A DNA stretch of 64,000 nucleotides from a virus: positions 1 to 64,000 of the IMG/VR virus record IMGVR_UViG_3300021057_000274; one strand, given 5' to 3'. Made by a program: the position numbers and the translations under genes. The notes beneath the pieces are model-generated. The model ran no database searches. It worked only from the letters and a program-made list of their open reading frames with translations, and had not been told where the DNA came from. Positions 7,199 through 62,041 of the stretch are shown here, in pieces. Position 1 is the first letter of the stretch. Every line of letters begins with the position of its first letter.

Positions 7199-7502
7199 GA
7201 TCAGAGGACGCACGGCTGACTTGTTCATGTTGGACGAGCTCCAAGTCACGAAGACAAACGCCGGCGGCCGGCTCTACGACGAGCGAGCGATGGCGGATGC
7301 TCTTCCAGCAGCGCTAGAGCAAGCGTTAGGCGACTTCTTCTTCCCATCCTATCCCATCTACGCGAGACGAGTTAGTGAGGTAGAGAGCGAGTCAGTGAAG
7401 AAGATGAATGAGATCTCCGTGAAGCTCACGACGCAGTCGCGTTTGCTAGAGGCTGGCATGTCGGAGATCGTCGACCGAGAGTTCTGGAAGTTGCTGGCAT
7501 GA
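7188..7502 (+). CDS. Hypothetical protein, 104 residues
   Basis: Not recognised. ATG 7188 overlaps the end of the previous gene by 11 bases. The longer frame from 7140 is Arg-rich and lies inside that gene, so it was not chosen. The protein is mixed alpha/beta with a polar middle (YARRVSEVESESVKK). Its stop overlaps the ATG of the glycosyltransferase, so it is translationally coupled to it. Confidence 0.65.
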   Translation: MAAEIRGRTADLFMLDELQVTKTNAGGRLYDERAMADALPAALEQALGDFFFPSYPIYARRVSEVESESVKKMNEISVKLTTQSRLLEAGMSEIVDREFWKLLA

Positions 7503-8587
7503 AGATCGTCGTCTACACCATCGCGCTCAACGAGGAGAAGTTCGTTGATCGCTTCATGAACTCGATTTGCAACGAGGCTGACGGCGTCTACGTTACCGAC
7601 ACCGGCTCTACCGACGGTACGGTCGAAGCCCTACGGCGCCGCGGCGCGCAGGTCGATGTCATCAAGCTCAAGCCGTGGCGGTTCGACGTCGCTCGAAACA
7701 TCTCGATGCAGCTCGTACCCGCCGACGTCGACCTCTGCGTGTGCATCGACCTCGATGAGGTGCTCTCGCCCGGGTGGCGCAAGTGCCTCGAGGAGGCTTA
7801 TCTCAAGGCAGAAAAGAAGCCAGATCGAGTCCGCTACCAGTACGTGTGGAACACTCTCCCTGACGGTCGAGAGGGGACGACATACTGGTACGACAAGATC
7901 CACACCCGAGGAGGCTTTCGTTGGGTCAAGCCTGTCCACGAGACCCTCGCCTTCTACAAGGGCGAAGAGACGCAGCTCTTCGTCGACGGGTTCAAGCTCT
8001 ATCACTACCCCGACCCGACGAAGTCACGAGGCTCCTACCTCTCGCTCCTCGAGCTGTCGGTGCGTGAGGAGCCAGAGGATGACCGCAACTCTCACTATCT
8101 CGGTCGCGAGTACATGTACTACGGGATGTGGGACCACGCGATCGCCGAGCTGAAGCGTCACCTCACCCTCAAGCGAGCGACCTGGAACGCCGAGCGAGCT
8201 GCCTCGATGCGTTACATCGCGCGTTGCTTGCAAGCGCTCGGTCAGCTTGACGAGGCCGAGCGCTGGTTACTACGTGCTTGCGCCGAGGAGCCCCGTACCC
8301 GAGAGCCCTGGGTCGAGTACGGAAAGTTTCTCTATGAGACGCGGAAGGACCACGTCGGCTGCTACGCGGCGATGACTCGAGCGCTCGCGATCAAGGAGCG
8401 CCCAAACGTCTATCTCAACGAGCCGTCGGCATGGGGATATGAGCCGCACAACCTCGCGGGTGTCTCCGCTTACTGGATGGGGATGCGCGCTGAGGGCGTC
8501 GAGTTGATTCGTCAAGCTCTAGCGATCGAGCCAAACAACGAGTACCTCCGGGAAAATTTACGGCTAGCTGGCGGCAAGGTAGAATGA
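7499..8587 (+). CDS. Glycosyltransferase 2 with TPR tail
   Basis: A protein of 362 residues coupled to the previous gene (ATGA). Residues 1-210 form a GT2 domain: VVYTIALNEEKFVDRF, VTDTGSTDGT, KPWRFDVARN and CIDLDEVLSP (DxDE metal motif). Residues about 215-350 are helical TPR-like repeats (AERWLLRACAEEP and similar). It matches the second and third domains of the 4890 protein closely, so one arose from the other by duplication with gain or loss of the methyltransferase. The sugar donor and acceptor are unknown. Confidence 0.85.
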   Translation: MKIVVYTIALNEEKFVDRFMNSICNEADGVYVTDTGSTDGTVEALRRRGAQVDVIKLKPWRFDVARNISMQLVPADVDLCVCIDLDEVLSPGWRKCLEEAYLKAEKKPDRVRYQYVWNTLPDGREGTTYWYDKIHTRGGFRWVKPVHETLAFYKGEETQLFVDGFKLYHYPDPTKSRGSYLSLLELSVREEPEDDRNSHYLGREYMYYGMWDHAIAELKRHLTLKRATWNAERAASMRYIARCLQALGQLDEAERWLLRACAEEPRTREPWVEYGKFLYETRKDHVGCYAAMTRALAIKERPNVYLNEPSAWGYEPHNLAGVSAYWMGMRAEGVELIRQALAIEPNNEYLRENLRLAGGKVE

Positions 8588-14971: not shown

Positions 14972-16141
14972 GTGACAGGTAGCAAACGGGACCTCACGGT
15001 CCTCATCGGTAGGTTTTCGTTGTTCCACGTCGGGCACGCTGAGCTTCTCGAGCGAGCGCTCAACCTCAGCAACAAGGTCATCGTCGTCATCGGCTCGACC
15101 TGGCAGCCTCGCACCACCAAGAATCCCTTCACCGGCGGCGAACGTGCCGCTGTGATCATGAACTGGTACGAGAATTGGTTCAACGCTAACGCCCCTCGCC
15201 CAGGGTCGGATCTAGCGGACCTCGAGGTCGTCTTCGCCCGCGACTACAGGTATAACAATACCAAGTGGCTCGCCGAGGTCCAGGCCGAGGTCAGACGCGC
15301 GGCGCCCGATGCCAGGGAGGTTTACCTCACCGGTTCCGAGCGCGACGCTAGTACGTTCTACCTGCAGATGCTCCTCGCCCAGGCCAACTGGAAGCGGGAC
15401 TTCGTTGAGGAGAACCGCAACGTCAGCAAGGTTCTCTCCGCGACCGCCCTCCGCAACCTCTTCTTCCGCAACGAGTTCGAGGGCAACCAGATCACCGACG
15501 GCAACCGCGAGATGCTGCTCCGCGCGTTCATCCCTCACGAGTCACGCGCTTTCCTCGAGCGCTTCAAGGAGACGCCGGCCTACTCACTCCTCCTCGAGGA
15601 GTTCGAGGTAGAGCGCAAGAAGAACGAGGCGAAGAAGGCCCTCTCAACGGTGCGCAAGTACCCGATCATCGAGTTCGCGGCCGACGCCGTCGTCTTTCAG
15701 ACCGGCCACATCCTCCTCGTCCAACGCCGCGCTGCACCCGGCAAGGGCCTCTGGGCGCTCCCGGGCGGCCACGTCGACGAGTTCGAGTGGACCTTCGACA
15801 CCGCCGTTCGTGAGCTCTACGAAGAGACTAAGCTCGACGTCCCCGAGCTCGCCCTCCGCAACTCGCTGAAGTTCAACCACTTCTTCGAGCACCCGGATCG
15901 CTCGCCCGGCCGCGGCCGCGTCGTCTCGATGGCCTACTGCTTCGAGCTGGCTGACATCGTCGTCGACGGCAAGATCAAGTTGCCCAAGGTGAAGGGCTCC
16001 GATGACGCCGTCAAGGCGAAGTGGTTTCCGGTCGGCGAAGCGATCAACATGTCGGACCAGCTCTTCGATGACCACTGGGACATCATCTCGGACTTCGCCG
16101 ACCGCCTCGAGCGAGCGAACGTGGGCGGAAAGATCAAGTGA
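14972..16141 (+). CDS. nadM: Bifunctional NMN adenylyltransferase / Nudix hydrolase
   Basis: A protein of 389 residues. Residues 1-190 form the NMNAT domain: IGRFSLFHVGHAELL (GRF-x-x-H-x-G-H motif) and LSATALRNLF (the S-x-T-x-x-R motif). Residues about 235-385 form a Nudix domain with the box GGHVDEFEWTFDTAVRELYEE. This NadM-Nudix architecture is known from bacteria (for example Synechocystis and Francisella) and phages. The first domain makes NAD+ from NMN and ATP; the second may hydrolyse ADP-ribose. With NAMPT directly downstream it forms the two-step NAD+ rebuilding route known as NARP2. Start is GTG, with AAGGAG upstream. Confidence 0.9.
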   Translation: MTGSKRDLTVLIGRFSLFHVGHAELLERALNLSNKVIVVIGSTWQPRTTKNPFTGGERAAVIMNWYENWFNANAPRPGSDLADLEVVFARDYRYNNTKWLAEVQAEVRRAAPDAREVYLTGSERDASTFYLQMLLAQANWKRDFVEENRNVSKVLSATALRNLFFRNEFEGNQITDGNREMLLRAFIPHESRAFLERFKETPAYSLLLEEFEVERKKNEAKKALSTVRKYPIIEFAADAVVFQTGHILLVQRRAAPGKGLWALPGGHVDEFEWTFDTAVRELYEETKLDVPELALRNSLKFNHFFEHPDRSPGRGRVVSMAYCFELADIVVDGKIKLPKVKGSDDAVKAKWFPVGEAINMSDQLFDDHWDIISDFADRLERANVGGKIK

Positions 16142-16185
16142 ATTGCAGCACCAGGTGAGCGAAAGACGCAAGCCTGTAATTTAAC

Positions 16186-16200
16186 CGTAAGGAGCTTACG
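16186..16200 (+). promoter_or_regulatory. Hairpin burying the NAMPT ribosome binding site
   Basis: CGTAAG (16186-16191), loop GAG, CTTACG (16195-16200): a perfect six-pair hairpin ending at the ATG 16201. The Shine-Dalgarno AAGGAG is split between stem and loop. The same AAGGAGCTT core sits in the hairpin of the nadM leader. Confidence 0.5.
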
Positions 16201-17697
16201 ATGAAAAATGCAGTTGAACTTGCACCCCTCCGGGAACCCGGAGACACACCTGACCAGAAGACCATCACCGCGTGGAGCGGCGGCCAGCCGCTGATGCCCC
16301 GCAACATTCCGCTCGAAGCGGATAGCTACAAGCTCGGCCACTGGGCGATCTACCCGGCCGCGACGAACGGAATGTTCTCCTATCTCGCGGCCCGTAAAAA
16401 GGGCGAAACGATCGTCCCCGTCGGCATGCAGATGTTCATCAAAAAGGTGCTGCTCTCTAAGCAGATCACCATGGAGATGATCGACGAGGCCGAGGCCTTT
16501 GCCAAGAAGCACTTGATCGCTGGTGAAGGCGCCGTCACCTTCAACCGTGCTGGCTGGGAAAAGGTCGTCAAGAAGTACAACGGCTTTCTGCCGTTGAAGA
16601 TCCGCGGCGTTCGCGAAGGCACGCGAGTCCCGAGCGGCAACGCTCTCTGGACGATCGAGTGCACCGATCCCGACCTGTTCTGGCTCGCGTCGTACATCGA
16701 GACCGCGGTTCAGCGCGTCGTCTGGTATATGACGACGATCGCGTCGAACGACTACAAGAATTGGCGTGCGCTGCGTCTGTATGACGCGATGTCGAACGAT
16801 CCGGCGCCGGTGCCCTGGACCGCGATCGCTCTCCACGATTTCGGCGGCCGCGGGGTCACTTGCGGAGAGCAAGCCGAAAACGGCGGCATGTCCCACCTGA
16901 TCTATTTCGGCGGATCGGACACGATCGACGGCGTACGCGCGGCGAACTTCTACTACAACTGTGACATGGCGGCCTACAGCGTTTTTGCCACCGAGCACAG
17001 CGTGCAGACCGCGTATGGCGCGATGGGTCAGCGCGAGTACCTGGAGACGGTGATCAAGACTCAGGCCAAGCCGGGCGGCATCGTGTCGATCGTCATCGAC
17101 GGTTACGACACCCTCCGTGAGACCGATGTCGTTTGCTCACTGAGGGACATGATCGTCGCTTCTGGCGCCAAGGTGGTTCTCCGCCCAGACTCGGGCGACC
17201 CTCTCGAGCTCCTCCCGGCGATTCTCCGCAAGCTCGCCGCGGCGTTCGGCACCACGAAGAACTCGAAAGGCTTTCTCGTGATCAACAACGTCGGAGTCAT
17301 TTGGGGCGACGGGGTCGACTTCGACCTGATGAACGCGGTGCTCGACCAGGTCACCGAGATGGGCTTCGCGGCCTGCAACATCGTGTTCGGCTCTGGCGGC
17401 GCGCTCCTCCAGAAGGTCAACCGTGACACCTACTCTTTCGCGCAGAAGGCGTCGGCGATTCGCCGCGGAAACCGCTGGGAGCCGATCGCGAAGAACCCGA
17501 TCACCGACGCTGGCAAGAAGTCGCAGGGCGGGCGCCTCTCGCTGTACCGGAGCGCTCTCACCGGCGAGTACGTGACGCTCGACATGGACTCGAAGATCGA
17601 CGCCGAGTACCAGGACCAGATGGTCACGATCTACGAGAACGGCGTGCTGCTCATCGACGAGAAGCTCGACGACGTTCGCGCGAGAGCAATGGCTTAA
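16201..17697 (+). CDS. nampt: Nicotinamide phosphoribosyltransferase
   Basis: A protein of 498 residues, the usual NAMPT length. It joins nicotinamide and PRPP to NMN. Motifs matching the human enzyme: DSYKLGHWAIYP near residue 41, LHDFGGRGVT, SHLIYFGGSDTIDG (catalytic His232 by my count), VLRPDSGDPLELL, GDGVD and FGSGGALLQKV near the end. It lies 59 bases after nadM with its own ribosome site, on the same transcript. The product NMN feeds NadM. Known phage homologues supply NAD+ and help phages survive NAD+-depleting defences. Confidence 0.93.
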   Translation: MKNAVELAPLREPGDTPDQKTITAWSGGQPLMPRNIPLEADSYKLGHWAIYPAATNGMFSYLAARKKGETIVPVGMQMFIKKVLLSKQITMEMIDEAEAFAKKHLIAGEGAVTFNRAGWEKVVKKYNGFLPLKIRGVREGTRVPSGNALWTIECTDPDLFWLASYIETAVQRVVWYMTTIASNDYKNWRALRLYDAMSNDPAPVPWTAIALHDFGGRGVTCGEQAENGGMSHLIYFGGSDTIDGVRAANFYYNCDMAAYSVFATEHSVQTAYGAMGQREYLETVIKTQAKPGGIVSIVIDGYDTLRETDVVCSLRDMIVASGAKVVLRPDSGDPLELLPAILRKLAAAFGTTKNSKGFLVINNVGVIWGDGVDFDLMNAVLDQVTEMGFAACNIVFGSGGALLQKVNRDTYSFAQKASAIRRGNRWEPIAKNPITDAGKKSQGGRLSLYRSALTGEYVTLDMDSKIDAEYQDQMVTIYENGVLLIDEKLDDVRARAMA

Positions 17698-28322: not shown

Positions 28323-29186
28323 ATGTTCAAGTATTACAGCTACGACGAGCGCGACAACTTCCACCTGCACGTCGGAAAGATCTTTCTGCACGTGCTGATC
28401 GTCCTCTCGATCCTCATCTGGCTGAGCAAGTTCGGGTGGCACCGGATCGAGACCCCGCCGGGGCACGAGACGGTATTGATCGACAAGCCGTGGTTCGGCG
28501 GCCAGGGTGGCGCGCGCACCCAGACGCAGCAGCCTGGCACAGGTTGGTACTGGTTCTCAACCGTTGGCCTGAACGTCGAGACGACGCCGATTCGGTACGA
28601 CGAGCCGTTAGACGATCTGGTGACCGCGGACAACAACTTCCTTGACTTCAATACCTACATCGTCCTCCAGTGGCATGATGCGGCGTACAACGTCCAAAAG
28701 TTCGGCTGGACGAAGTGGTACGACCACAACCTCAAGGAGCCATACCGGACGATCGTTCGCAACGAGGCGAAGAGGTACCAGATGACCCCCTTGATGACCG
28801 ATAACAAGACCAGCGACGAGATGGAACGGAGCGTTCGCGAGACCTTCGCGAAGGTGATCGCTGAGTCGGGACTCAAGGTGACGATTCGCGACATGAGCAT
28901 CGGCCGCGGACGTCCGAACCAGCCGGTCGTCGACGAGATGGATCGGACCGCCGCTCAACAGCAGCGCAAAAAGTCCGAGGACGAGCGCAAGAAGGCCGAG
29001 GACGCTCGGAGCGCCGCCGAGGCCTCGCGCGCCAAGGCCGACAACGCTTACCGCGAGGCGATGCGGATGGACACCACCCAGTTCATCGAGCTAGAGAAGG
29101 CGAAGATCTTCGCGGCCGCGTGCCGCGACAAGGCCTCATGCGTGATCGTTAACGGCGCCGCGACGCCGATCCAGATCTCGAAGTGA
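28323..29186 (+). CDS. SPFH/Band 7 membrane protein
   Basis: A protein of 287 residues with GGGAGA before its ATG. An N-terminal membrane helix (about 20-40, IFLHVLIVLSILIWLSKF) is followed by a Band-7-like domain (PPGHETVLIDKPWF, GLNVETTPIRYDEP, DFNTYIVLQWHD) and a long Ala/Lys/Glu-rich coiled coil (about 205-255). This is the prohibitin/stomatin/HflK plan. Such proteins build membrane scaffolds and regulate proteases. The M50-type protease gene lies 1.5 kb upstream. A phage-side role is unknown. Confidence 0.75.
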   Translation: MFKYYSYDERDNFHLHVGKIFLHVLIVLSILIWLSKFGWHRIETPPGHETVLIDKPWFGGQGGARTQTQQPGTGWYWFSTVGLNVETTPIRYDEPLDDLVTADNNFLDFNTYIVLQWHDAAYNVQKFGWTKWYDHNLKEPYRTIVRNEAKRYQMTPLMTDNKTSDEMERSVRETFAKVIAESGLKVTIRDMSIGRGRPNQPVVDEMDRTAAQQQRKKSEDERKKAEDARSAAEASRAKADNAYREAMRMDTTQFIELEKAKIFAAACRDKASCVIVNGAATPIQISK

Positions 29187-51061: not shown

Positions 51062-51090
51062 TTTACTTGTTCTTGGAAAGATGATATAAC
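51062..51090 (+). promoter_or_regulatory. Promoter of the envelope island
   Basis: -35 TTTACT (51062-51067), 17-bp spacer, -10 TATAAC (51085-51090). The 60-base leader holds a hairpin, GCTCGC with GCGAGC (about 51111-51138), and AGGAG before ATG 51159. Confidence 0.7.
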
Positions 51091-51158
51091 TTCCTAGAAC
51101 TTGAGGAAAGCTCGCTGCCTTCACCAAAGTGCGAGCGCGAAAGGAGAAACAAGCTCAC

Positions 51159-51842
51159 ATGGCCGATGACAACTCTGGCTTCTTCGGTGGTTTGAAGTCA
51201 CTCGGACGGGCCGCGGCCGGCGTGCTCGTCGAGCTTCCCGATGACAAGCAAGCGCCCAAGCCGGCGCCGACGAAGCCAGTCGCAACCGCCCCCGGAGGTA
51301 CCGCTCCCGCCCGCGTCGCGGTCGGTTACGACCCGGAGATGTATGAAGCGCTTCAAAAGATGATCGCGAAGCGCGCCTCGGCTTACACCGATCTCCAGGA
51401 AAAGTCCAACCTCCTGGTCAACGTCATCCCCGACAAGTCAACGCGCATCAAGGCGGCCTTCGCCACGAGCCAACGCTCGTCGTCGGACATCGTCAAGGCG
51501 ATCGACATCCACCTGATGGACCTCGTCGCAGAGGCGCGCAGGTTCACCGCCAAGACCGAGAGCGAGATCGCGGCCAAGTCGGGGACCTCTCGCACCGAAG
51601 CGACGAGGCTCAAGGCCGCCAACGAGACATCCCTGAAGCGCATCGAGCAGCTGCGCGGCGAGATCATGTCGCTCGAGAACCAGATCAGTGAGAGCGCGGC
51701 CAAGATCAACGAGCTCAGCGCCGAGGCCGACGCCGCCGAAGCCGAGATCCGCGCTGTCGCGGCTCGCTTCGAGCTGACCGTCGAGCACGTCAAGAGCGAG
51801 CTCGAGGGCGAGAAGGCGAGCCTCTCGGCTCTCCTCACCTAA
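51159..51842 (+). CDS. Coiled-coil protein, first gene of the envelope island
   Basis: A protein of 227 residues from ATG 51159. Pro-rich linker (KQAPKPAPTKPVATAPGG), then a long helical, coiled-coil region from about 60 to the end (KRIEQLRGEIMSLENQISES). No signal peptide or membrane helix. The helical plan recalls PspA-like or 5-bromo-4-chloroindolyl-type membrane stress proteins but no specific family is clear. Followed at 22 bases by a membrane-bound coiled-coil protein, so the two may form a complex. Confidence 0.65.
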   Translation: MADDNSGFFGGLKSLGRAAAGVLVELPDDKQAPKPAPTKPVATAPGGTAPARVAVGYDPEMYEALQKMIAKRASAYTDLQEKSNLLVNVIPDKSTRIKAAFATSQRSSSDIVKAIDIHLMDLVAEARRFTAKTESEIAAKSGTSRTEATRLKAANETSLKRIEQLRGEIMSLENQISESAAKINELSAEADAAEAEIRAVAARFELTVEHVKSELEGEKASLSALLT

Positions 51843-51864
51843 TCACCAACCCGGAGGCAAACCG

Positions 51865-52974
51865 ATGCTACCCACGTCCGTCCCCAGCGACTTCAAGCCG
51901 AAGTCCTTCTGGAGCAAGCCAGAAGGCACCACCGGCATGATCGTCATCGCCCTCATCGCACTCGGCGTCGCGATGGGCTTCAACGTCATCTCGCCGATCT
52001 TCATCACGATGTTCAACAACCTCGCGGCGCTCTTCAACGCGGCGATCGCCGCGACGATCTCGGCCGTCGGCCTCGCGCTCCTGGCGCTCTTCGTCACCAA
52101 CCGGAAGGTGTGGTTGCTGGTCAACTACGGCTTCAAGAGCGTGATGCGGTGGATCACCCAGTGGTTCGTCGAGATCGACCCGATCGGGATCATGAAGGGG
52201 TACATCTCGACCCTCAACGAGAAGCTCACCGAGCTCCGGGAGAGCAAGTCGGCCCTCAAGGGGCAGATCTCGATCGCCGAACAGAAGATCCAGAAAAACC
52301 AGGACGAGGCCGCAAAGGCTCTCAAGATGGTCGCGGCGGCTCGAGAGATGGGGCTCAAGGCCGAGGCGCGCGGCGACCAGGAGGCCGTCCTCTCCGCCAA
52401 GTCGCAGATGGGCATCAACAGCAACCAGCACGGCCGGCTGACCGCCCTCAACAAGCGGCTCGAGGGTGCGCTGTCGAAGATGCAGATGCTCTACAAGGCG
52501 CTGATCAAGTATGAGATCGCGTCGGCCAACGCGATCACCGAGATCAAGAACGAGGTGAGCGTCAGGGAGCAAGAGCGCGACATGATCAGGGCGTCGCACA
52601 AGGCGATGTCGAAGGCGATGGCGATTCTCCGCGGCTCAGGCGACGAGTACGAGCTGTTCGAGCAGGCGATGGAGTACACCGCCGCCGAGTACGGCAAGAA
52701 GCTCGGCGAGATCGAAGACTTCATGGACTCGACGCGCGGCGTCCTCGAGGGCATCGACCTGCAAAACGGCGTGTGGCAAGCCGAAGCGCTCGAGAAGCTG
52801 GCGAAGTTCGAGAACCAGACCGACTCGCTGCTGCTTGGCGGCGAGAAGCGTCTCCTCATCGAGCACCACGTCACCGAATCCCTGCCGACCCGGATCGCCG
52901 CCGACGAGGCGGTCTCCGTGAGCGGCGGAGACTACCAGGACCAGTTCTTCGGCTCTGGTAGAGCAAAGAAGTAA
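51865..52974 (+). CDS. Membrane coiled-coil protein, PspA-like
   Basis: A protein of 369 residues. Two membrane helices (about 25-48 and 55-78), then a long PspA/IM30-type helical domain from about 100 to 300 (KLTELRESKSALKGQISIAE, LEGALSKMQMLYKALIKYE). The tail is acidic and polar. A fusion of membrane anchors to a PspA-like rod is unusual. Such rods bind and stabilise membranes. Likely partner of the 51159 product and of the ABC genes downstream. Confidence 0.65.
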   Translation: MLPTSVPSDFKPKSFWSKPEGTTGMIVIALIALGVAMGFNVISPIFITMFNNLAALFNAAIAATISAVGLALLALFVTNRKVWLLVNYGFKSVMRWITQWFVEIDPIGIMKGYISTLNEKLTELRESKSALKGQISIAEQKIQKNQDEAAKALKMVAAAREMGLKAEARGDQEAVLSAKSQMGINSNQHGRLTALNKRLEGALSKMQMLYKALIKYEIASANAITEIKNEVSVREQERDMIRASHKAMSKAMAILRGSGDEYELFEQAMEYTAAEYGKKLGEIEDFMDSTRGVLEGIDLQNGVWQAEALEKLAKFENQTDSLLLGGEKRLLIEHHVTESLPTRIAADEAVSVSGGDYQDQFFGSGRAKK

Positions 52975-53005
52975 CTCTTTCAAACCACCAACGGGAGCTT
53001 TAACC

Positions 53006-54790
53006 ATGCAATTGAAAGCTGGAGGCAAAGCCCTGGTCGTGGCCGTCGTGGCAATCGCAGCCTACTTCGGCTACAACTATGCGGACCAACGCGGTTATTT
53101 CAACACCAAACCCACCGTCGCGTCGAGCGTGCCGACTCGCGTCGACCTGCCGTCAGGCAACCTCGGCGCCCCGGCCCCGAGCGCAGGAGCGCAGGTCACC
53201 CAGGTGGCGCTCGCGCCGGCCGGGAACAGCGACATCCGGGTGAAGTTCCTGACGATTCCCTGGAACGGGACGCTGGGCCTGATGTACGCGAACGGCGGCC
53301 CGTCAACGGCTCCGAACAGCCTGATGGCCAAGGCCGGGGTCAAGCTCGACGTGCAGCGCGAGGACGACTACGGCAAGATCACCGCCGAGCTGGTCGCCTT
53401 CGCCGAGGACGTCTCCAAGGGCGTCGCGGTGCCGAACCGAGGAGCGGCGTTCGCCGTCATCATGGGTGACGCCCTGCCCGGCTTCGCGTACGGCGCCCAG
53501 CAGGTGCTGAACAAGCTCGGCCAGGAGATCCAGGTGGTCGGCGCGATCGGCTTCTCCCGCGGCGAGGACAAGTGCATGCTGCCGGCGGCCGTCAAGGCCG
53601 ACCCGCAAAAGGCGCGCGGCTCGCTGATCGGCGGCGTTCTCCGCGACGGCGACGTTCACATCTGCATGAAGTGGGCGGGTGACAACGGCATCCCGGTCAA
53701 CCCGGACGAGAAGACGTATGACCCGAACGCGATGAACTTCGTCTCGGTCAGCGCCTTCACCGAGGCCGACGAGAAGTTGATCAACGGCTACTGCGAGAAC
53801 CGACCCGAGGTGAACAACGGAAAGAAGACCGGCAAGACGGTCAAGGCCTGCCAGAACGGGACCGCGACCTGGACGCCGGGCGACGTCAACGTCGTCACCA
53901 AGTGCAACGAGAAGCGCCTCGCCTGCGCCGGCATCGCCTCCGTCGCGTCGACGAGGGAGTACGCGATGATGATGCCGTCGATCGTGATCGGGAACAAGCA
54001 GTGGATGGCGCAGAACTCCCGCTTCGTCGAGGGCATGCTCTCGGCAGCCTGGGAGGGCGGCGAGCTGGTCCGCTCGAACGACGTCGCGCTGACCCAGGCC
54101 GCCGAGACCGCCGCCAAGGTCTTCAAGGAGGAGGACGGCGCCTACTGGAAGACGTACTTCAAGGGCAAGGAGATGTACGGCGTTCAGCTGGGCGGATCGA
54201 CCACGATCGGCCTCGCGGACAACGTCCACCTCTTCGGCGTCGGCGGCAAGGACGACATCTACAAGCGCGTCTACACCGTCTTCGGCGAGATGGACAACCG
54301 CTTCTACCCGTCCGAGCTGCCGCGCCTGGTGCCCTACAACCAGGTGGTGACCTCGAAGTACATCGAGAGCGTCGCCAGCAAGGTGACCCGAATGGCGAAG
54401 GCCGATCTGCCGGTCTACCGTGACGCGGCCCGCGGTGACGTCGTCGCCAAACGCGCCTGGACGATCGAATTCGACAGCGGCAAGGCGACCTTCAACGAGA
54501 GGGCAGCGACGGTGCTGGACGAGCTCCTCAACCAGGTAGCGGTCTCGGGGATGTCGGTCCAGATCAACGGACATACCGACAGCACCGGTGACCCGACCCG
54601 CAACCAATCGCTCTCGAAGGAGCGCGCGGACGCGGTGAAGAACTTCCTGATGACGAACTCGCGCGAGGCCTTCCCGGAGAGCCGGATCGCCACCCGCGGC
54701 TACGGCCAGGACATGCCGGTGGAGAGCAACGCGAGCGCCGCCGGGCGCTCGAGGAACCGTCGCGTCGAGGTTATCCTCCGCGCGAACTAA
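53006..54790 (+). CDS. Substrate-binding protein - OmpA domain fusion
   Basis: A protein of 594 residues. N-terminal membrane helix (about 7-22), Pro/Ala-rich linker, a periplasmic solute-binding domain of NMT1/TauA type (about 75-470; VKFLTIPWNGTLGLMYANGG, ASTREYAMMMP), and a C-terminal OmpA domain (about 480-594; INGHTDSTGDPTRNQSLSKE, then RATRGYG-like and RSRNRRVEVIL). The OmpA domain should bind peptidoglycan. This places a solute sensor between inner membrane and cell wall. Downstream permease and ATPase genes are of the matching NitT/TauT class. Several Cys in the middle may form disulfides. Confidence 0.82.
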   Translation: MQLKAGGKALVVAVVAIAAYFGYNYADQRGYFNTKPTVASSVPTRVDLPSGNLGAPAPSAGAQVTQVALAPAGNSDIRVKFLTIPWNGTLGLMYANGGPSTAPNSLMAKAGVKLDVQREDDYGKITAELVAFAEDVSKGVAVPNRGAAFAVIMGDALPGFAYGAQQVLNKLGQEIQVVGAIGFSRGEDKCMLPAAVKADPQKARGSLIGGVLRDGDVHICMKWAGDNGIPVNPDEKTYDPNAMNFVSVSAFTEADEKLINGYCENRPEVNNGKKTGKTVKACQNGTATWTPGDVNVVTKCNEKRLACAGIASVASTREYAMMMPSIVIGNKQWMAQNSRFVEGMLSAAWEGGELVRSNDVALTQAAETAAKVFKEEDGAYWKTYFKGKEMYGVQLGGSTTIGLADNVHLFGVGGKDDIYKRVYTVFGEMDNRFYPSELPRLVPYNQVVTSKYIESVASKVTRMAKADLPVYRDAARGDVVAKRAWTIEFDSGKATFNERAATVLDELLNQVAVSGMSVQINGHTDSTGDPTRNQSLSKERADAVKNFLMTNSREAFPESRIATRGYGQDMPVESNASAAGRSRNRRVEVILRAN

Positions 54791-54798
54791 GACGTAAG

Positions 54799-54854
54799 CG
54801 AGCACGAGGGAGTTGGCTCGTAAGATCTTGGTTCGAACCCAAGGTGCTCGCCCA
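54799..54854 (+). tRNA. Truncated tRNA-like element, no anticodon arm
   Basis: Acceptor stem CGAGCAC (54799-54805) pairs perfectly with GTGCTCG (54844-54850), followed by C and CCA. T arm: CTTGG, loop TTCGAAC, CCAAG (54827-54843), with the conserved T loop. A D-arm-like GAG-GGAGTTGG-CTC (54806-54819) is present, but only 7 bases separate it from the T arm, so there is no anticodon stem. At 56 bases it is too short for a normal tRNA. A relic, an attachment-site scar or a tRNA mimic. Confidence 0.6.
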
Positions 54855-54875
54855 AACTAACGACGGAGGCGTCGA

Positions 54876-55655
54876 GTGGGATCGTTGAAGAGCTACGTAG
54901 TTCCGTTTGAGCCGGTCGGGTCACTCAAGATCCTAGCGATCGGGCAAGCGATCATCTTGCTCGTTCTCTGGTTCATCTCGCCGTACAAGCTCATCCCAAA
55001 CCCGCTAGAGATCTTGCAAGCCTGGGAGATGCTAGCGACGACCCAGGGGATGCTCGTCGAGCTCTGGAAGAGCTCCGTCACGATCGCGTCGGCGATCTTC
55101 TACGCGTCGGCGATCACGCTCGGCCTGGGTGTGCTCTACACCGCGCCCGCCTTCAAGCCGATCATCAGGTGGATGACCTCGCTGAGATTTCTCGGCTTCG
55201 CGGGCATCACCTTCTTCTTCACCCTGTGGACGTCCGACGGCGCCGCGCTCAAGATCTGGCTCTTGACCTTCGGGATGACCGCCTTCTTGCTGACTAACAT
55301 GCTCGCGATCATCGACAGCGTGACGCAGGAGGAGATCGACTACGCGAAGACCCTCGGGCTCTCGGGGTGGCGCGCCACCTTCGAGGTGGTCGTGCGTGGC
55401 CGCATGGATGAAGCGTTCGACCTGATCAGGCAAAACGCCGCGATCGGGTGGACTCTCCTCTCGATGGTGGAGGGGCTCGTCAGGTATGAGGGCGGGATCG
55501 GAGCGTTGCTGATGAACATGAGCAAGCACCTAAATCTCGACGCGATCTTTGCGATACAATTAACCATCTTGGTCTACGGAATTCTCCAGGACTACGCGCT
55601 GAGGTGGATTCGCAACATCATCTGCCCCTACGTCGCGTTGACGAGCGCTCGATGA
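54876..55655 (+). CDS. ABC transporter permease, NitT/TauT type
   Basis: A protein of 259 residues, about six membrane helices. The EAA loop that contacts the ATPase is EEIDYAKTLGLSGWRATFEV followed by RQNAAIGW. It has the length and order of SsuC/TauC permeases. GTG start with GGAGG upstream. Pairs with the ATPase at 56256. Substrate not predictable; the fused binding protein at 53006 or TAXI protein at 60132 would supply it. Confidence 0.88.
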   Translation: MGSLKSYVVPFEPVGSLKILAIGQAIILLVLWFISPYKLIPNPLEILQAWEMLATTQGMLVELWKSSVTIASAIFYASAITLGLGVLYTAPAFKPIIRWMTSLRFLGFAGITFFFTLWTSDGAALKIWLLTFGMTAFLLTNMLAIIDSVTQEEIDYAKTLGLSGWRATFEVVVRGRMDEAFDLIRQNAAIGWTLLSMVEGLVRYEGGIGALLMNMSKHLNLDAIFAIQLTILVYGILQDYALRWIRNIICPYVALTSAR

Positions 55656-55960
55656 AAGCCCGCCCTCGCGACAAGTTTGAGGTCATGGTGATCTTGGGGG
55701 TGGTCGTCGCGATCATCGTCGCGGCCGTGATTCTCGGGACCTTCAAGCATCATCCCTGGTTCATCGCCGCGCCAGACGACCACTTCGCCCCCATCTGCTA
55801 TTACATCTTTGGGGCTGGACTTCTCAGCTGGGCGGCTCTGGCGACGGTCGACAAGAAGTATCACCCCGGTGAGCTTTTCGTTTGCGTGCTGTTTGGCTGG
55901 ATCTACTGGCCGCTCGCGATCTGGTACACCGTTCGCATGTTTAACCTCAGGAGGCCGTGA
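55652..55960 (+). CDS. Membrane protein, 102 residues
   Basis: ATGA-coupled to the permease. Three hydrophobic stretches (VMVILGVVVAIIVAAVILGTF, a central ICYYIFGAGLLSWAALATV and FVCVLFGWIYWPLAIWYTV). May be an accessory subunit of the transporter. Unrecognised. Confidence 0.6.
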   Translation: MKARPRDKFEVMVILGVVVAIIVAAVILGTFKHHPWFIAAPDDHFAPICYYIFGAGLLSWAALATVDKKYHPGELFVCVLFGWIYWPLAIWYTVRMFNLRRP

Positions 55961-56259
55961 TGGATCTAAAGCAGCGTGACATCTTCACCGAGGTGCTCTC
56001 GTACCTCACGATCGAGCAGCTCTACTCTCTGCTCTCTTGCTTCGACCTCGAGAAGGGGTACGAGAAGAAGCCTGGTCAGATGACCGCGCAGGTCTTCAAG
56101 GCGACGATGATCAGCCGCGTCGCCTCCCACGTGATGGAGCTAGAGAAGGATCGAGCCGATCTTGAGGAGCTTCGGCGAGCGATCGCGAAGGTGATTCCGC
56201 ATTCTGGCTTAACTGGACAACGTGCGGTGATCTGCAAGGGCAGCTCGAGGGCGTCGTGA
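55960..56259 (+). CDS. Hypothetical protein, 99 residues
   Basis: TGATG-coupled, AGGAGG upstream. Helical, cytoplasmic (LDLKQ-like start, VMELEKDRADLEELRRAIA coiled helix). Stop overlaps the ATPase GTG. Unrecognised. Confidence 0.6.
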   Translation: MDLKQRDIFTEVLSYLTIEQLYSLLSCFDLEKGYEKKPGQMTAQVFKATMISRVASHVMELEKDRADLEELRRAIAKVIPHSGLTGQRAVICKGSSRAS

Positions 56260-57095
56260 GTCGCGACTTCTCTCTCGGCAGCCGCTTGCTTACCGTCGAG
56301 GGGCTAGGCCTCTCGTACGGACCCAAGGTGATCCTCCGAGACGTCAACCTCAAGGTCGACAACATCAAGCGGCCCGGGCTGACGCAGGGACAGGTCGTTG
56401 CGCTGCTCGGACCGTCGGGCGTCGGCAAGACTCAGCTCTTCAAGTGTCTGGCCGGGCTTCAGCGCTCGACGTCTGGCAAGATCAGCTACCGCGTGAACCC
56501 CGGCAGCGACAAGGCTGCGGCTACCTACAAGGAGCCCCAGGCCGGAGACGTCGGCGTCGTCTTTCAGAGCTACCCGCTTCTCAAGCACCGAACGATCTGG
56601 AGCAACCTAAAGCTAGCGGCTGGTCGCCACCAGAAGTCCGATGAGGACGTCGTCGAACTGATGGAGAAGTTCGGCCTGACCCACACCAAGAATCTCTACC
56701 CGTCTCAGATCTCAGGCGGGATGCGCCAGCGGGTCGCGATCATCCAGCAGGTGCTGTGCAGCAGCTTCTACATCTTGATGGACGAGCCCTTCTCGGGGCT
56801 CGACCCGATCAACAAGGAGATCGCGGCTAAGCTCGTGCTCCAGGTCTCCCAGCAGAACGAGTACAACACGATCATCGTCACCACCCACGACATCGAGCAA
56901 GCGGTCGCGATCGCCGACACGATCTGGGTCCTGGGGCGTGATCGTGACGACAAGGGCGACTTCGTTCCTGGCGCGTACCTCGTCAAGGAGTATGACCTGA
57001 TCGCTCGAGGTCTCGCTTGGACGAGCGACGTTACCGCTCACCCCAACTTCTGGCCCACGGTCCGCGAGATCAAGGGTCTCTTCGGGAGCATCTGA
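56256..57095 (+). CDS. ABC transporter ATPase, NitT/TauT type
   Basis: A protein of 279 residues. All motifs intact: Walker A GPSGVGKT (52-59), Q loop VVFQSYPLL (Q104), signature ISGGMRQRV (about 142), Walker B YILMDEPFSGLD (about 162-173) and switch VTTHD (H201). Same subfamily as SsuB/TauB. GTGA-coupled. An extra loop of about 20 residues (GSDKAAATYKEPQAGD) before the Q loop is unusual. C-terminal 40 residues are extended. Confidence 0.93.
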   Translation: MSRDFSLGSRLLTVEGLGLSYGPKVILRDVNLKVDNIKRPGLTQGQVVALLGPSGVGKTQLFKCLAGLQRSTSGKISYRVNPGSDKAAATYKEPQAGDVGVVFQSYPLLKHRTIWSNLKLAAGRHQKSDEDVVELMEKFGLTHTKNLYPSQISGGMRQRVAIIQQVLCSSFYILMDEPFSGLDPINKEIAAKLVLQVSQQNEYNTIIVTTHDIEQAVAIADTIWVLGRDRDDKGDFVPGAYLVKEYDLIARGLAWTSDVTAHPNFWPTVREIKGLFGSI

Positions 57096-57364
57096 TGAGC
57101 TTATCTTTGCACGTGATGGGATTTGTGCCGCCTGACGAAAAGTGGAGAGAGATGAAGGAGGTCTGGGACGCTTGCAAGAAGGCAAATGTCGAAGTGCCTG
57201 AGAGCGTCTCAGAGTTCTTCGGTGGGCAAGATCCAGATCCGTCGGGCCTGGAGGTCGAGGTCCCTACACGTGACTACCACGGAGACTGGGAGTCGGGGTT
57301 CGAGGTCGACCTAGACAAGATTCCGGCCAACGTGAAAACCCTCAGGTTCATCGTCTCTTCATAG
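57095..57364 (+). CDS. Hypothetical protein, 89 residues
   Basis: TGATG-coupled to the ATPase. HVMGFVPPDEKWREMKEVWD start, an acidic middle and beta-rich end; a plan I have met in phage and prophage proteins with no known function. Possibly unrelated to transport. Confidence 0.6.
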   Translation: MSLSLHVMGFVPPDEKWREMKEVWDACKKANVEVPESVSEFFGGQDPDPSGLEVEVPTRDYHGDWESGFEVDLDKIPANVKTLRFIVSS

Positions 57365-57413
57365 ATGCAAAGTTACATCTACATTAATTGTTACAATCCA
57401 CGGAGATCGCACT

Positions 57414-57928
57414 TGAACTTCACAGAACATTTCGGAGACAAGCGGCTGAAGAAGCTCATCGAGCACATGGAGAAGCTGCCGCCCGAGCGAGGCAAGCACT
57501 TCAACATGGCCTACTGGGCCACGATTCCTGGCCGAACCGTCACCTCGCGGCAGGCGAAGGCCGAGAAGATGGGTCTCGTCCCGGGCGACACGCTGTCGGA
57601 GTGCCACATCGGGCGCTGCGGAACGACCGCCTGCGCGGCTGGCCACGCCGCTGTGCTCCCTTACTTTCGGAAGCTCGGTCTCGAGCTGAAGCTGGAGGGT
57701 GACGGCAACGTCAGCCTGGAGTTCGACGAGCAGCTCAACCCCAGCCTCCAATGCTTTGTGGAGGACGATCCCTTCCGCAACCTCGGCATCATCTTCGGTG
57801 TCCCCAAGGACAACGCGCTGATCCTCTTCGGCGACGCCAACTTCGACATGACGCCGAGGGAGTGGGCGAGGCGAGCCCGCAAGTGTCTCAACCTCTGGAA
57901 CAGGCAAGACAAGAGCGAAGACAGCTAA
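57414..57928 (+). CDS. Hypothetical protein, paralogue of the 20098 gene
   Basis: A protein of 171 residues from TTG 57414, with CGGAG 8 bases upstream. An earlier ATG at 57365 lacks a ribosome site. Shares KHFNM and CGTTACAAGHAA with the 20098 product. A -10-like TACAAT lies at 57392. Function unknown. Stop overlaps the CoaB start. Confidence 0.6.
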
Positions 57929-59016
57929 TGAGAATCCTCGTCACCGGCGGTCCGGTCCACGCTCACCTCGACCCGGTCAAGATCATCACGAACCGGTTCA
58001 GAGGCGGATTGATGGCCGAACTCGCTGAGGAGCTGAGCTACCACGCCGAGGTCACCTATCTCACGGCGAAGGGAGCTGAGCTTCCGACCGGATCGGTCGA
58101 CCTGCGGATCATCACCCACCGCGGCATCCACGACTATCTAGACCTGGTGACGAAGATGGCCAAGGACTTCGACGCCGTCGTGCTCGGCGCCGCCGTCGCT
58201 AACCTGATTCCGGCTGTCGAGATGACGACGAAGTTTCCGAGCCACAACTACAAGCCCGGAGACGTCATCCCGATCAACTTCACGATCGCTCCTCGGATCG
58301 TCGACGAGGTCAAGAAGGCGGCTCCGTGGACAAAGCTCTTCGCGTTCAAGCTGTTGACGAACGTTCAAGAGGAGGAGCTCATCTCTGCCGCGTACGGGAT
58401 CGTCCTCGAGGCTAAGGCGACGGCCGTCTTTGCGAACGACACGAACGATCTCTCTCGGAAGCTGATCGTCACCCGCGAGCGCGGGGTGCTAGATCGCAAG
58501 GCCGGTGACCTCAAGAAGTTCATCCTCGAGTGCGCCGCCGACAAGTACTACACGACGACGGTCGATCAAGAGGCACCCCGCTCAACGGCAAATCCGATCT
58601 GGGCGTTGATGTTCAAGCGATTCGAGAGCGAGGTGCGCTCTCACGAGAAGATGTTCGAGACGACTCCTGAGGGCTACGTCTTCGGCACGATCGCGGTGCG
58701 TGGAATCAACGGCAGCTTTCTGACCACCGGGCGCGGCAAGAATGAGCTCGATGACCGGGTCTACGTGAAGGTCGTCGATCACACGTTTCGTGAGGTGATC
58801 ACCGAGGGGCGGAAAGCGACCCTCAACGCCCCGCTCCTCGACATGATCTTCAAGAAAACGACCTGTCAATCGATCATCCACTGGCACCGTCAAGTGCCTG
58901 GAGCACCCACTCTTCCCTACGCCCCAGCGGGCACCGTGCGCGATGCCGAGCGAGTGATTCCTCAAGAAGACATCTTCAACATCGAGGGCCACGGCGCCTT
59001 CCTGATCAAGTACTGA
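57928..59016 (+). CDS. coaB: Phosphopantothenoylcysteine synthetase-like (CoaB domain)
   Basis: A protein of 362 residues. The N-terminus matches the CoaB half of CoaBC: ILVTGGPVHAHLDPVKIITN (TxGGT-like nucleotide loop and the D-P-V-R-x-I-T/S-N motif), VVLGAAVANLIP, and FAFKLLTN at the position of the G-F-x-x-E-T motif. No CoaC flavoprotein part is present. The C-terminal about 140 residues (from DKYYTTTVDQEAP) are extra. CoaB makes 4'-phosphopantothenoylcysteine, upstream of the CoaE-CoaD fusion at 37892. ATG start overlaps the previous stop. Confidence 0.72.
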   Translation: MRILVTGGPVHAHLDPVKIITNRFRGGLMAELAEELSYHAEVTYLTAKGAELPTGSVDLRIITHRGIHDYLDLVTKMAKDFDAVVLGAAVANLIPAVEMTTKFPSHNYKPGDVIPINFTIAPRIVDEVKKAAPWTKLFAFKLLTNVQEEELISAAYGIVLEAKATAVFANDTNDLSRKLIVTRERGVLDRKAGDLKKFILECAADKYYTTTVDQEAPRSTANPIWALMFKRFESEVRSHEKMFETTPEGYVFGTIAVRGINGSFLTTGRGKNELDDRVYVKVVDHTFREVITEGRKATLNAPLLDMIFKKTTCQSIIHWHRQVPGAPTLPYAPAGTVRDAERVIPQEDIFNIEGHGAFLIKY

Positions 59017-59681
59017 TGCGTTACCCCATCCACGAGGTCTACGAGCAGCTCTACCAGCGCTTCTTCAAGCGGACGCCGGCCGAGCTGCTAGAGGGCGTTG
59101 TGCTAGAAGGTAAGCACGTGCTTGACCTCTGCGGCGGAGGCGGGCGCCTCTCCCTGCACGCGATCAACGCGGGAGCCGCGCGGGTGTCCTACGTCGACGA
59201 CGAGCCCGACATGCTCACCGCCGAGGCACGGACCGCGCTCTGGGCATGCAACCGCGCCAACCGCATCTTCCACGACCAGGTAGAGCACGTCTTGCGTCGG
59301 TGGTGGGTGCACGACGTGCCGTACGACGTCGTCGCGTGCCAACAGGGGATCAACTATTGGCTGACTCCCGAGACCGCGCGGGACGTGTACGCGGTGCTCG
59401 CGCCCGGGGGCGTCTTCGCCTTCAACACGTTCAACGTCGCGCCGCCGCGTGCTCCGAAGGTGCGTGAATACACGCTCGACGGTCACAACTTCGTGGAGGT
59501 ATCCTACCTCGTCGGCGACACGGTATACCACGTGCAAGCTCGTGACGGCCTGCCGCCGCACGTCACCCATTTTAAGTGGATCAGTCCAGAGAATCTCTAC
59601 GCCCTCTTACTAGAGGCAGGCTTCAAGACGGCGCTTTGCGGCGGTTCGGTGGGTACCGGGCTTTGGCAGGCGTTCAAGTGA
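59016..59681 (+). CDS. SAM-dependent methyltransferase
   Basis: A protein of 221 residues, TGATG-coupled. VLDLCGGGGRLSLHAINAGA (motif I), VSYVDDEPDML (motif II), YDVVACQQGINYWL (motif IV) and LAPGGVFAFNTFN. Class I fold with UbiE/methyltransferase 11 style. Substrate unknown. Sits between CoaB and the TAXI part of the island. Confidence 0.8.
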   Translation: MRYPIHEVYEQLYQRFFKRTPAELLEGVVLEGKHVLDLCGGGGRLSLHAINAGAARVSYVDDEPDMLTAEARTALWACNRANRIFHDQVEHVLRRWWVHDVPYDVVACQQGINYWLTPETARDVYAVLAPGGVFAFNTFNVAPPRAPKVREYTLDGHNFVEVSYLVGDTVYHVQARDGLPPHVTHFKWISPENLYALLLEAGFKTALCGGSVGTGLWQAFK

Positions 59682-59785
59682 GCATTTACGGCACGCGAAA
59701 TCCGATCAAGCTGTTGTGGCGAATGTTCCTGACCCGTCTCTGGCGGCGAAGCTTGCGCCAGGCCGCAAAAAGAGATCAAGAGTGA
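59678..59785 (+). CDS. Small basic peptide, 35 residues
   Basis: GTG 59678 overlaps the methyltransferase stop. Amphipathic and basic (LLWRMFLTRLWRRSLRQ). May bind membrane or nucleic acid. Coupling supports it. Confidence 0.5.
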   Translation: MSIYGTRNPIKLLWRMFLTRLWRRSLRQAAKRDQE

Positions 59786-59786
59786 G

Positions 59787-59815
59787 TTTACTCTCTCGTT
59801 GAGGTATGTTCTAAT
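59787..59815 (+). promoter_or_regulatory. Promoter of the TAXI gene group
   Basis: -35 TTTACT (59787-59792), 17-bp spacer, -10 TCTAAT (59810-59815). A six-codon ORF, MISEAT, starts at ATG 59822, just where transcription should begin, and its TGA overlaps ATG 59839. Confidence 0.55.
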
Positions 59816-59838
59816 CATTCCATGATAAGTGAGGCCAC

Positions 59839-60135
59839 ATGAAACTAAAACCCTTGCCGAAGTTCTTGCTCATCCTCGCGGTGGCGGGCGGCGCCGGATA
59901 CGCTCTCAAGGAGCTTCACGAGCGCGGCGCGTTCAAGTCGACCACCGCCGTCGTGCAAGAAGCTGCCCAGCAACCAGCGGTCGTGCAAACGATCGAGGCG
60001 CCGAAGCCGCAGCCGGCGCCTGTCGCTCAGCCGGCCGCACCTGCGCCGGTCCAAGCTCCCCCTGCCGCGGACCCTCAACCCGTCAACCGTCCCAGCTCGG
60101 CTGGGATGAGCAAGCTCCTGGAGGCCAAGAAATGA
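59839..60135 (+). CDS. Signal-anchored Pro/Ala-rich protein, 98 residues
   Basis: One N-terminal membrane helix (FLLILAVAGGAGYAL), then a periplasmic Pro/Ala/Gln spacer (KPQPAPVAQPAAPAPVQAPP). It resembles the linker of TonB-type or wall-spanning proteins, without a folded end domain. Coupled to the TAXI gene. May tether or space the binding protein. Confidence 0.6.
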   Translation: MKLKPLPKFLLILAVAGGAGYALKELHERGAFKSTTAVVQEAAQQPAVVQTIEAPKPQPAPVAQPAAPAPVQAPPAADPQPVNRPSSAGMSKLLEAKK

Positions 60136-61076
60136 AACGCATCCTCGTCATCTGCTCCTCGATGGCCCTCGCGACCGCCGCGCTGGCCCAACAGTCCACC
60201 ATCGGCATCGCCTCGGGCCCGCCGACCGGCACCAACTACCCGATGGTCCAAGACATCGTTCGCGCCTGTAGCGGTCCGACCCTCTCGATCAAGAACGTCC
60301 AGACCGCCGGCGGCGAGGAGAACATCTACGCCGTGAAGAGCCGGCCTGACGTTCAGTTCGGCGTCGTTCCGATCGACACCGCGGTCTTCATGTCTGGCCA
60401 GGACAAGGCGACGATGGACAAGATCAAGATGGTCTTTCCCTTCTTCTCGACCGAGATCCACGTCGCTGTTCCCGAGAAGTCGCCGGCCAAGTCCGTCGCC
60501 GACCTCGCCGGAAAGCGCGTCGTCGAGGGCCCGCAAGGCTCGGCGACGTACGTCACCACCCAGGTGTTCAAGGAGCTGACCGGCGCGAAGTGGCAAGAGC
60601 TGACCGCGAGCCAGGTCGACGGCCTGAACGGGCTCAAGACCGGCAAGGCCGACGCGATGTTCGTCGTCGCCGGCGCACCGATCACGATGTTCAAGGATCC
60701 GACGCTCTCCGCGGGCATCCGACTCCTCCCGGTCCAGCACTCAGCGCTCGACAGCGTGAAGTACTACGTCCGCACGATGATTCCCGGCGGCACCTACCCG
60801 CAGATCAAGCAAGCGCTGCCCACCTACCGGGTCGACAACATGCTCGTCACCTTCGACTACCGGAGCTCTTACCACCGGGAGATCGCGGCGCTGACCAGCT
60901 GCATCACGCAGCGAATGGACTGGCTCCTGCAGTACGCCGGAAAGTCAGCCGGCGAGGGCGGCACCCATCCCAAGTGGAAGGACGTCGATCCGCTCAACAT
61001 CGATCGCCTCAACTGGCCGGCTCACCCGATCGCCGTCGCGACGATCAAGCGTGAGCTGAACCGCGCCAAGAAGTAA
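60132..61076 (+). CDS. TAXI-family TRAP-type solute-binding protein
   Basis: A protein of 314 residues. Signal peptide (about 1-20, cleavage after ALA). GIASGPPTGTNYPMVQDIVRAC, NVQTAGGEENIYAV, LAGKRVVEGPQGSATYVTTQ and GLKTGKADAMFVVAGAP match TAXI proteins. These bind small anionic solutes such as glutamate or glutamine and normally feed TRAP membrane subunits; none is present here. It may instead serve the ABC permease or act as a scavenger or sensor. Confidence 0.85.
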   Translation: MKRILVICSSMALATAALAQQSTIGIASGPPTGTNYPMVQDIVRACSGPTLSIKNVQTAGGEENIYAVKSRPDVQFGVVPIDTAVFMSGQDKATMDKIKMVFPFFSTEIHVAVPEKSPAKSVADLAGKRVVEGPQGSATYVTTQVFKELTGAKWQELTASQVDGLNGLKTGKADAMFVVAGAPITMFKDPTLSAGIRLLPVQHSALDSVKYYVRTMIPGGTYPQIKQALPTYRVDNMLVTFDYRSSYHREIAALTSCITQRMDWLLQYAGKSAGEGGTHPKWKDVDPLNIDRLNWPAHPIAVATIKRELNRAKK

Positions 61077-61106
61077 TCTCACCTCTAAACAACAAGGAAA
61101 CTGTTC

Positions 61107-61946
61107 ATGCTGCTCTTTCTAGGGGAAATGCTGTTCCTGATCTTGGCCCTCGTGCTGTTCGTTCCGGCCACGATCCTCTCGGACCGCAAGTACTTCGGTT
61201 GGTCATTCTGCCTCACCGTCGCCGCCGGCGCTGCGCTCGCCTGGAACTACTGGCCTGGCTTCGTCACCTGGTTCCAGACCAAGGGGCTGGTCTGGGGGAT
61301 CGCTGAGGCGATGATCTGGTACATCTTCCTCGGGGTCATCACCGCCGCGGTCTACCTCATCTCCTACACGTGGAAGGTGCGCGACAACTACGACGCGCGG
61401 CTCGCCAAGGTGAACCGAGCGACCGCCGAGAAGAACCTCGCCGAGATGGTCTGCACCAAGACCGGCGAGGGCGAGACCGAGGACCTTCGCTACGGCCTCA
61501 AGAAGGGGGAAGCTCTCGACTCGGAGCTGCTCAAGGCCTTCATCAAGTTCACGGCGGTCTTCGGGCAGCGAGCCGAGGAGGGAGCATTTAGGCCAGGGCG
61601 CCGCCACGCCGCGACAGCAACCACCTACACCGACGTCGGCCTGCGCGAGCTTCTCAGCGACTACTGCAACGACTTGAACCTCCCGGAGTCGTTCGACTTC
61701 AAGGACCTCAAGGTCACGAACGACGCTGACGGCGTCGCGATCCTCACGGAGAAGATCAACTCGATCATCCCGCCGAAGTTCAAGATGTGCAAGTACTTCG
61801 TGGTTTGGGCCGCGATCGAGTGGCCGGCGACCCTCGCCTGGCTCCTCTTCTCCCGGATCATCCGCCAGGTCATCGACCGCGTGGTCTCGATGTTCGGCGG
61901 CACGTTCGACCGCTTGTCGGCCTACGCCTTCGGCAAGATTGAGTAA
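61107..61946 (+). CDS. Membrane protein, last gene of the envelope island
   Basis: A protein of 279 residues. Three N-terminal helices (LGEMLFLILALVLFVPATI, WSFCLTVAAGAALAWNYW, EAMIWYIFLGVITAAVYLIS), a cytoplasmic middle of about 130 residues, and one or two helices near the end (YFVVWAAIEWPATLAWLLF). Unrecognised. Two hairpins end the transcript. Confidence 0.65.
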   Translation: MLLFLGEMLFLILALVLFVPATILSDRKYFGWSFCLTVAAGAALAWNYWPGFVTWFQTKGLVWGIAEAMIWYIFLGVITAAVYLISYTWKVRDNYDARLAKVNRATAEKNLAEMVCTKTGEGETEDLRYGLKKGEALDSELLKAFIKFTAVFGQRAEEGAFRPGRRHAATATTYTDVGLRELLSDYCNDLNLPESFDFKDLKVTNDADGVAILTEKINSIIPPKFKMCKYFVVWAAIEWPATLAWLLFSRIIRQVIDRVVSMFGGTFDRLSAYAFGKIE

Positions 61947-62009
61947 CCCGACCCGCCTCCTCGGGTTACTCAGCGGGGACCGAGAGCGATCTCGGTCCCC
62001 GTTTCTTTT
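61941..62009 (+). terminator. Double terminator hairpin of the envelope island
   Basis: First hairpin GAGTAACCCGA (61941-61951) with TCGGGTTACTC (61961-61971), containing the stop codon. Second and stronger: CGGGGACCGAGA (61974-61985) with TCTCGGTCCCCG (61990-62001), loop GCGA, then TTTCTTTT. Confidence 0.9.
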
Positions 62010-62012
62010 GGA

Positions 62013-62041
62013 TTTACTTTCGCGTAACTTCGTGATAAAAT
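62013..62041 (+). promoter_or_regulatory. Promoter with ribosome-site leader
   Basis: -35 TTTACT (62013-62018), 17-bp spacer, -10 TAAAAT (62036-62041) in TGATAAAAT. Directly behind the terminator T-run. GGAGG precedes ATG 62067. Confidence 0.75.

Follow-up and report, generated by a model that had tools for sequence, protein, structure and literature searches.

A conserved gene set of huge phages joining a predicted ESCRT-III-like protein to a putative wall-tethered transporter cassette

The closest described counterpart of the locus reported here is a bacterial operon in which a PspA/Snf7 protein with a transmembrane segment is encoded together with an AAA ATPase, an ATP-binding cassette (ABC) ATPase, a permease and a periplasmic binding protein fused to OmpA, as exemplified by OGG56892.1 (Ravi et al. 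2024, PMC11237479). These bacterial counterparts are said to link membrane remodelling with transport; the AAA and ABC genes 'may' occur in the operon, so the AAA ATPase is not strictly required, and we found no mention of phage carriage in the main text (PMC11237479). The terD/pspA-like region of Jug gut phages also belongs to a huge phage and places a pspA-like gene beside stress genes, but neither an ABC transporter nor an OmpA fusion is reported there (PMC12363816). Here we describe a five-gene core from the 389,331-base virus record IMGVR_UViG_3300021057_000274. The window, that is, the whole stretch of DNA analysed, comprises bases 1–64000 of this record, and the genome outside it was searched family by family. 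The core lies on the plus strand of block 51062–62009 and consists of A (51159..51842), a coiled-coil protein; B (51865..52974), a membrane-anchored rod; C (53006..54790), a solute-binding protein (SBP) fused to an OmpA domain; D (54876..55655), an ABC permease; and G (56256..57095), an ABC ATPase. Like the operon of Ravi et al., the locus places an ABC ATPase, a permease and an OmpA-fused binding protein next to a transmembrane protein predicted to belong to the ESCRT-III superfamily. It differs in that the block holds no linked PspA_IM30 gene or AAA ATPase: the AAA genes of this phage lie elsewhere in the genome, none within the window, and no PspA_IM30 match was found. The phage form also adds an anchored spacer and a TAXI-family binding protein (genes L and M), spreads over huge phages and exchanges cassettes. 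A preliminary description of the stretch had stated that no account of this combination was known. That statement stands for phages, for which we found no description in the literature searched, whose silence does not prove novelty, but it fails for bacteria. One survey, from 2024, documents the combination in bacteria; as far as we found, it has been neither reported in phages nor studied experimentally.

Complete A-B-C-D-G sets are present in 19 distinct phages: the window phage, L002, L008, L010, L014, L015, L017, L101, L110, L111, L112, L113, L115, L116, L117, L120, L121, Lak-B5 and phage G. Each group of near-duplicate contigs counts as one phage, truncated copies were also seen at contig ends, and the B gene of L017 was identified by position and features. 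Most of the matches to genome contigs (L036–L100) were disregarded, since they extend over no more than the OmpA domain and the sequence around it. L014 is close to LR756500, and 15 Lak records match both B and D. The genes run A-B-C-D-G, except in phage G and L017, where they run D-G-A-B-C; the permease is part of every complete copy. L101 additionally shares with the window a thymidylate synthase upstream and the membrane protein N downstream. The hosts include Bacillus (phage G), Prevotella (Lak megaphages) and, by inference, Proteobacteria; the isolated carrier of the module is Bacillus phage G, where it spans gp243–gp250, with the permease and ATPase in gp243–gp245 and A and B in gp246–gp247. 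The core therefore behaves as a conserved unit, as the preliminary description had proposed, and its genes do not occur scattered among the related phages. The phage identity of the 389 kb record finds support in the phage-type topoisomerase II subunits, the RNA ligase/tail-fibre attachment protein and the nicotinamide adenine dinucleotide (NAD) salvage genes encoded in the same window.

The C-D-G cassette shares its permease, ATPase and binding-protein fold with the NitT/TauT importers (TauABC, NrtABCD, CmpABCD). This assignment holds because D matches CmpB and NrtB and the fold of C matches TauA and CmpA, while uptake itself is predicted. D scores above the Pfam cut-off for BPD_transp_1 and finds CmpB (E 6e-17) and NrtB (E 5e-12) as its best solved profile matches; against the TauC profile it reaches E 6e-7, below the equivalog cut-off. 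G matches ABC_tran (PF00005, E 7e-26) and retains every catalytic motif, with the key residues (Walker A GPSGVGKT, Q104, SGG.RQR, Walker B D176-E177, D-loop LD and H211) invariant in five divergent phages. C begins with an N-terminal anchor, continues into a TauA-like substrate-binding domain that Pfam does not detect at the sequence level, and ends in an OmpA peptidoglycan-binding domain (PF00691, E 8e-19). In the AlphaFold2 model of C (predicted local distance difference test, pLDDT, 88.7), the binding domain retrieves TauA (TM-score 0.75 by target length), CmpA, NrtA and SsuA in Foldseek. With solved peptidoglycan-binding domains the OmpA domain shares up to about 42% identity. Over 31 sequences its D525 is nearly invariant and R540 invariant; we take these to be the diaminopimelate-contacting Asp and Arg, as in the A. 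baumannii OmpA complex. The first C copy of phage G has Asn in place of this Asp; in that phage the SBP-OmpA gene stands in two tandem copies (L006:13848-17053). Unlike the known NitT/TauT importers, C bears both a membrane anchor and an OmpA domain, and the cassette is linked to an ESCRT-III-like protein. The intact ABC motifs and the NitT/TauT kinship of the preliminary description are thus borne out.

B combines an N-terminal transmembrane hairpin with an arrangement of helices that its AlphaFold2 model predicts as a long helical hairpin (pLDDT mostly >90) followed by shorter helices (106–169, 172–256, 260–296, 305–323 and 326–335). A long helical hairpin and then further helices is the fold by which the ESCRT-III superfamily is recognized. 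Compared with all solved structures, the model has Vipp1 or entries from the Vipp1/PspA study as its top eight matches (best E 8e-4); CHMP1B and PspA follow at lower ranks. We regard the match as good, though not decisive. At the sequence level, the window B has no match to Pfam PspA_IM30 (PF04012), and the best orthologue, from phage L101, remains below threshold (E 2.6e-4, 18.1 bits versus a cut-off of 33.9). The possibility that B is an ordinary PspA by sequence is ruled out at Pfam thresholds, and a sequence search of the PDB gave noise only. The predicted fold supports an ESCRT-III/PspA-like protein, and the earlier term 'PspA-like' is upheld in this structural sense but not by Pfam on the window protein. 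B resembles PspA/Vipp1 (IM30) in its long hairpin and further short helices, and these proteins are its best fold matches, but it departs from them in carrying the transmembrane hairpin and in scoring below the Pfam PspA threshold. Homologues of A are found immediately 5' of B in most phages.

The two groups of genes coevolve as separate sub-modules. Pairwise identities are correlated between A and B (rho 0.83) and within C-D-G (0.91–0.93; reached in 0 of 500 permutations), and less so between the halves (0.46–0.56). In L112 the A, B and fused L-M proteins are 44%, 72% and 60% identical to those of L008, whereas C, D and G are only 25–32% identical. The transporter cassette of L112 was exchanged as a whole beneath a constant scaffold. 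The trees place L112 B with L008 and L010 (support 98/96), and L112 C and G with Lak, phage G, L111 and L115, on long branches whose exact positions are unsure.

The most economical reading of these data is a solute importer made by the phage itself, tethered to the wall and arranged at the inner membrane on an ESCRT-III-like scaffold. We consider this the most likely function and give it about an even chance of being correct. Fixed in the inner membrane through its N-terminal anchor, C would capture a small solute in the periplasm with its TauA/CmpA-like domain and grip the peptidoglycan with its OmpA domain, and a D2G2 ABC complex would import the solute using ATP. B, anchored by its transmembrane hairpin, would coat the inner leaflet with ESCRT-III-like filaments in partnership with the coiled-coil protein A; the scaffold would keep the membrane intact and the transporter clustered through a long infection. 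L and M would supply a second anchored binding protein. The data show the gene set, the unbroken motifs, the folds as predictions, the co-conservation and the exchange of cassettes; we infer the formation of filaments, the direction of import, the ligand and the benefit to the phage. In favour of transport, the ABC motifs are unbroken and the coevolution of C, D and G is tight. Several observations weigh against this reading. Chemoreceptor coiled coils enter the list of B fold matches from rank 9, the overall predicted template-modelling score of the B model is low (0.47), and coiled coils match loosely. C is fixed at both ends, which is unusual in a shuttle protein. In L118, A, B, L and M are retained, an anchored SBP_bac_3-LysM protein stands in place of C-D-G, and the 292 kb contig, which may be incomplete, yielded no D-like permease. 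The replacement (L118:10075-11166) has an N-terminal anchor of the same type as that of C, and appears to offer another means of tethering a binding protein to the wall.

A role in sensing or stabilising the envelope, instead of nutrition, is the chief alternative, a tentative one that we hold to be distinctly less probable than import. An ESCRT-III-like coat of A and B would be the core that seals or supports the inner membrane of the infected cell, and the anchored SBP with the ABC proteins would report the state of the wall or membrane, or a wall-derived ligand, to this coat. Such a role is favoured by the constancy of A-B beneath an interchangeable binding-protein cassette, by the apparently permease-free arrangement of L118, and by the company of the module. 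Band_7/SPFH proteins are a known type of PspA partner, and their genes stand inside the operon of L008, L010 and L112; the window also encodes such a protein at 28323-29186 (match 28449-29000), 22 kb upstream of the block. Bacterial versions carry a true PspA and an AAA ATPase, which fits the same role. Contrary to it, the catalytic motifs are kept in all five aligned divergent copies of the ABC ATPase, no complete copy lacks the permease, and C, D and G track one another in evolution more closely than they track A-B.

Besides the core, the block encodes L (59839..60135), an anchored Pro-rich spacer, and M (60132..61076), a TAXI-family solute-binding protein with a signal peptide. The N-terminal anchor of L is similar to that of C. 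Since L and M form a single protein in L008, L010 and L112, the most fitting role for L is to anchor M. M matches TIGR02122 above its cut-off (E 2e-31), finds solved TAXI relatives, and occurs in many, though not all, related phage loci. It thus shares its family with the TAXI solute-binding proteins of TRAP transporters, but differs from those systems in being paired or fused with the anchor L; no TRAP permease was found among the proteins of the block in Pfam scans. A TAXI-like binding protein is also encoded in Achromobacter phage Motura (L007:8010-8930), beside homospermidine synthase and glutathionylspermidine synthase genes, with no A-G core in the stretch read. A broader proposal is one that we likewise regard as possible but clearly less probable than import: the module may be a portable envelope-management device, in which a constant ESCRT-III-like A-B scaffold is combined with interchangeable wall-anchored ligand receptors (SBP-OmpA with ABC, SBP-LysM without ABC, TAXI on L), so as to sense and stabilise the envelope with transport as an option.

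We think it unlikely that the module serves superinfection exclusion or counter-defence, altering the envelope to block other phages or to resist membrane-acting host defences. Patchy occurrence and the swapping of cassettes would be in keeping with an arms race, but a complete importer is not needed for this purpose, the hosts of the related phages differ greatly in their envelopes, and no defence association turned up, although no test was aimed at one.

Operons with the same genes are found in contigs of Massilia, Albitalea, Scleromatobacter, Rhodoferax, Serratia and Methylococcales. In contigs of Armatimonadota and Abditibacteriota, C-D-G is present without a recognised B, and some of them have A-like genes close by. 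The bacterial contigs L021–L034 hold C-D-G (L022 ends within D at the contig edge), and the locus of L034 includes the true PspA (PF04012) and AAA ATPase. The bacterial form of the module is rare: B turned up in a single genome, the seed genome itself, among 300 of one bacterial order. The tree of C places the window with Massilia, other beta- and gammaproteobacterial operons and phage L101 (support 93/91), which suggests a proteobacterial host for the window phage. That the module is a recently captured host operon without a phage-specific role is very improbable: the window C is as near to Massilia and other betaproteobacterial operons (54% identity) as to phages, but this explanation is largely refuted by the breadth of phage carriage over deep branches including Lak, phage G and LR756500. 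The bacterial form also counts against it, having been seen in the seed genome only among the 300 genomes of its order.

All genes named in the preliminary description of the block are present, and its OmpA, permease, ABC ATPase and TAXI assignments were confirmed by Pfam and TIGR02122 profile searches, with start codons revised to ATG 51159 for A and ATG 60132 for M. Its view of the block as one system is not supported. We reject a single 11 kb system: H, I, J (DFP/CoaB-like) and K (methyltransferase), at 57095..59681, have no counterpart in any related locus and are probably an unrelated insertion outside the system, and conservation of E, F and N is poor or absent. E (55652..55960), a small membrane protein by hydropathy, is of unsure membership, and neither it nor F (55957..56259, 100 aa) has a homologue in related loci. 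N (61107..61946), a membrane protein of 279 aa, has a homologue at the same position in L101 only. Within J (57928-59016), the DFP/CoaB-like domain is joined to a C-terminal half without an assigned family; a class II aldolase beside the Lak module was ruled out as its relative (E 0.006 in a single comparison, with different Pfam domains).

The promoter and double terminator said to bound the block were both recovered. The left promoter-like site, TTTACT-N17-TATAAC (51062..51090, plus strand), has one mismatch to a recurrent motif, TTTACT-N17-TAWAAT, of which the window contains 16 matches with up to two mismatches versus 0.64 expected; no shuffled sequence reached 16. A generic sigma-70 scan alone did not call the site at 51062. 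The motif sites are mostly on the plus strand, for example at 17751, 18021 and 41735, with one at 62013, 3' of the terminator. A second promoter-like site (59787..59815, plus strand, one mismatch) lies between the K stop and the L start, giving L-M-N a promoter-like site of its own, which likewise speaks against the block as a single system. The terminator (61941..62003, plus strand) consists of two consecutive inverted repeats: the first (61941-61971) was read off the sequence itself, and the second (61972-62003), with a 14-pair stem and a T-rich tail, is a strong terminator by scan. Genes A, B and C are separated by 22–31 bases and C and D by 85, D through K overlap or abut, and a 157-base gap precedes L. 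Motif sites, terminator and tight spacing together make the block look like one long transcription unit with an internal promoter for L-M-N.

Elsewhere in the window, 14972-17697 encodes a NAD salvage pair, a cytidyltransferase/NUDIX protein and a nicotinamide phosphoribosyltransferase; downstream of its module, L002 likewise has a nucleotidyltransferase/NUDIX-like gene. Two window proteins, at 4890-6608 and 7499-8587, match one phage glycosyltransferase family (phrog_13126).

Complete importers or ESCRT-III-like proteins are unexpected in phages, yet the set is conserved among huge phages. The recurrence of a pump with an ESCRT-III-like protein in huge phages of unrelated bacteria suggests that the viruses take an active part in managing the envelope of their host cell during infection. 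The module also offers a testable set of partners for bacterial ESCRT-III-like proteins, and since phage G is an isolated phage, deletion and expression tests are possible. If our reading is true, long-infecting giant phages would remodel the host envelope, and feed through it, with machinery of their own.

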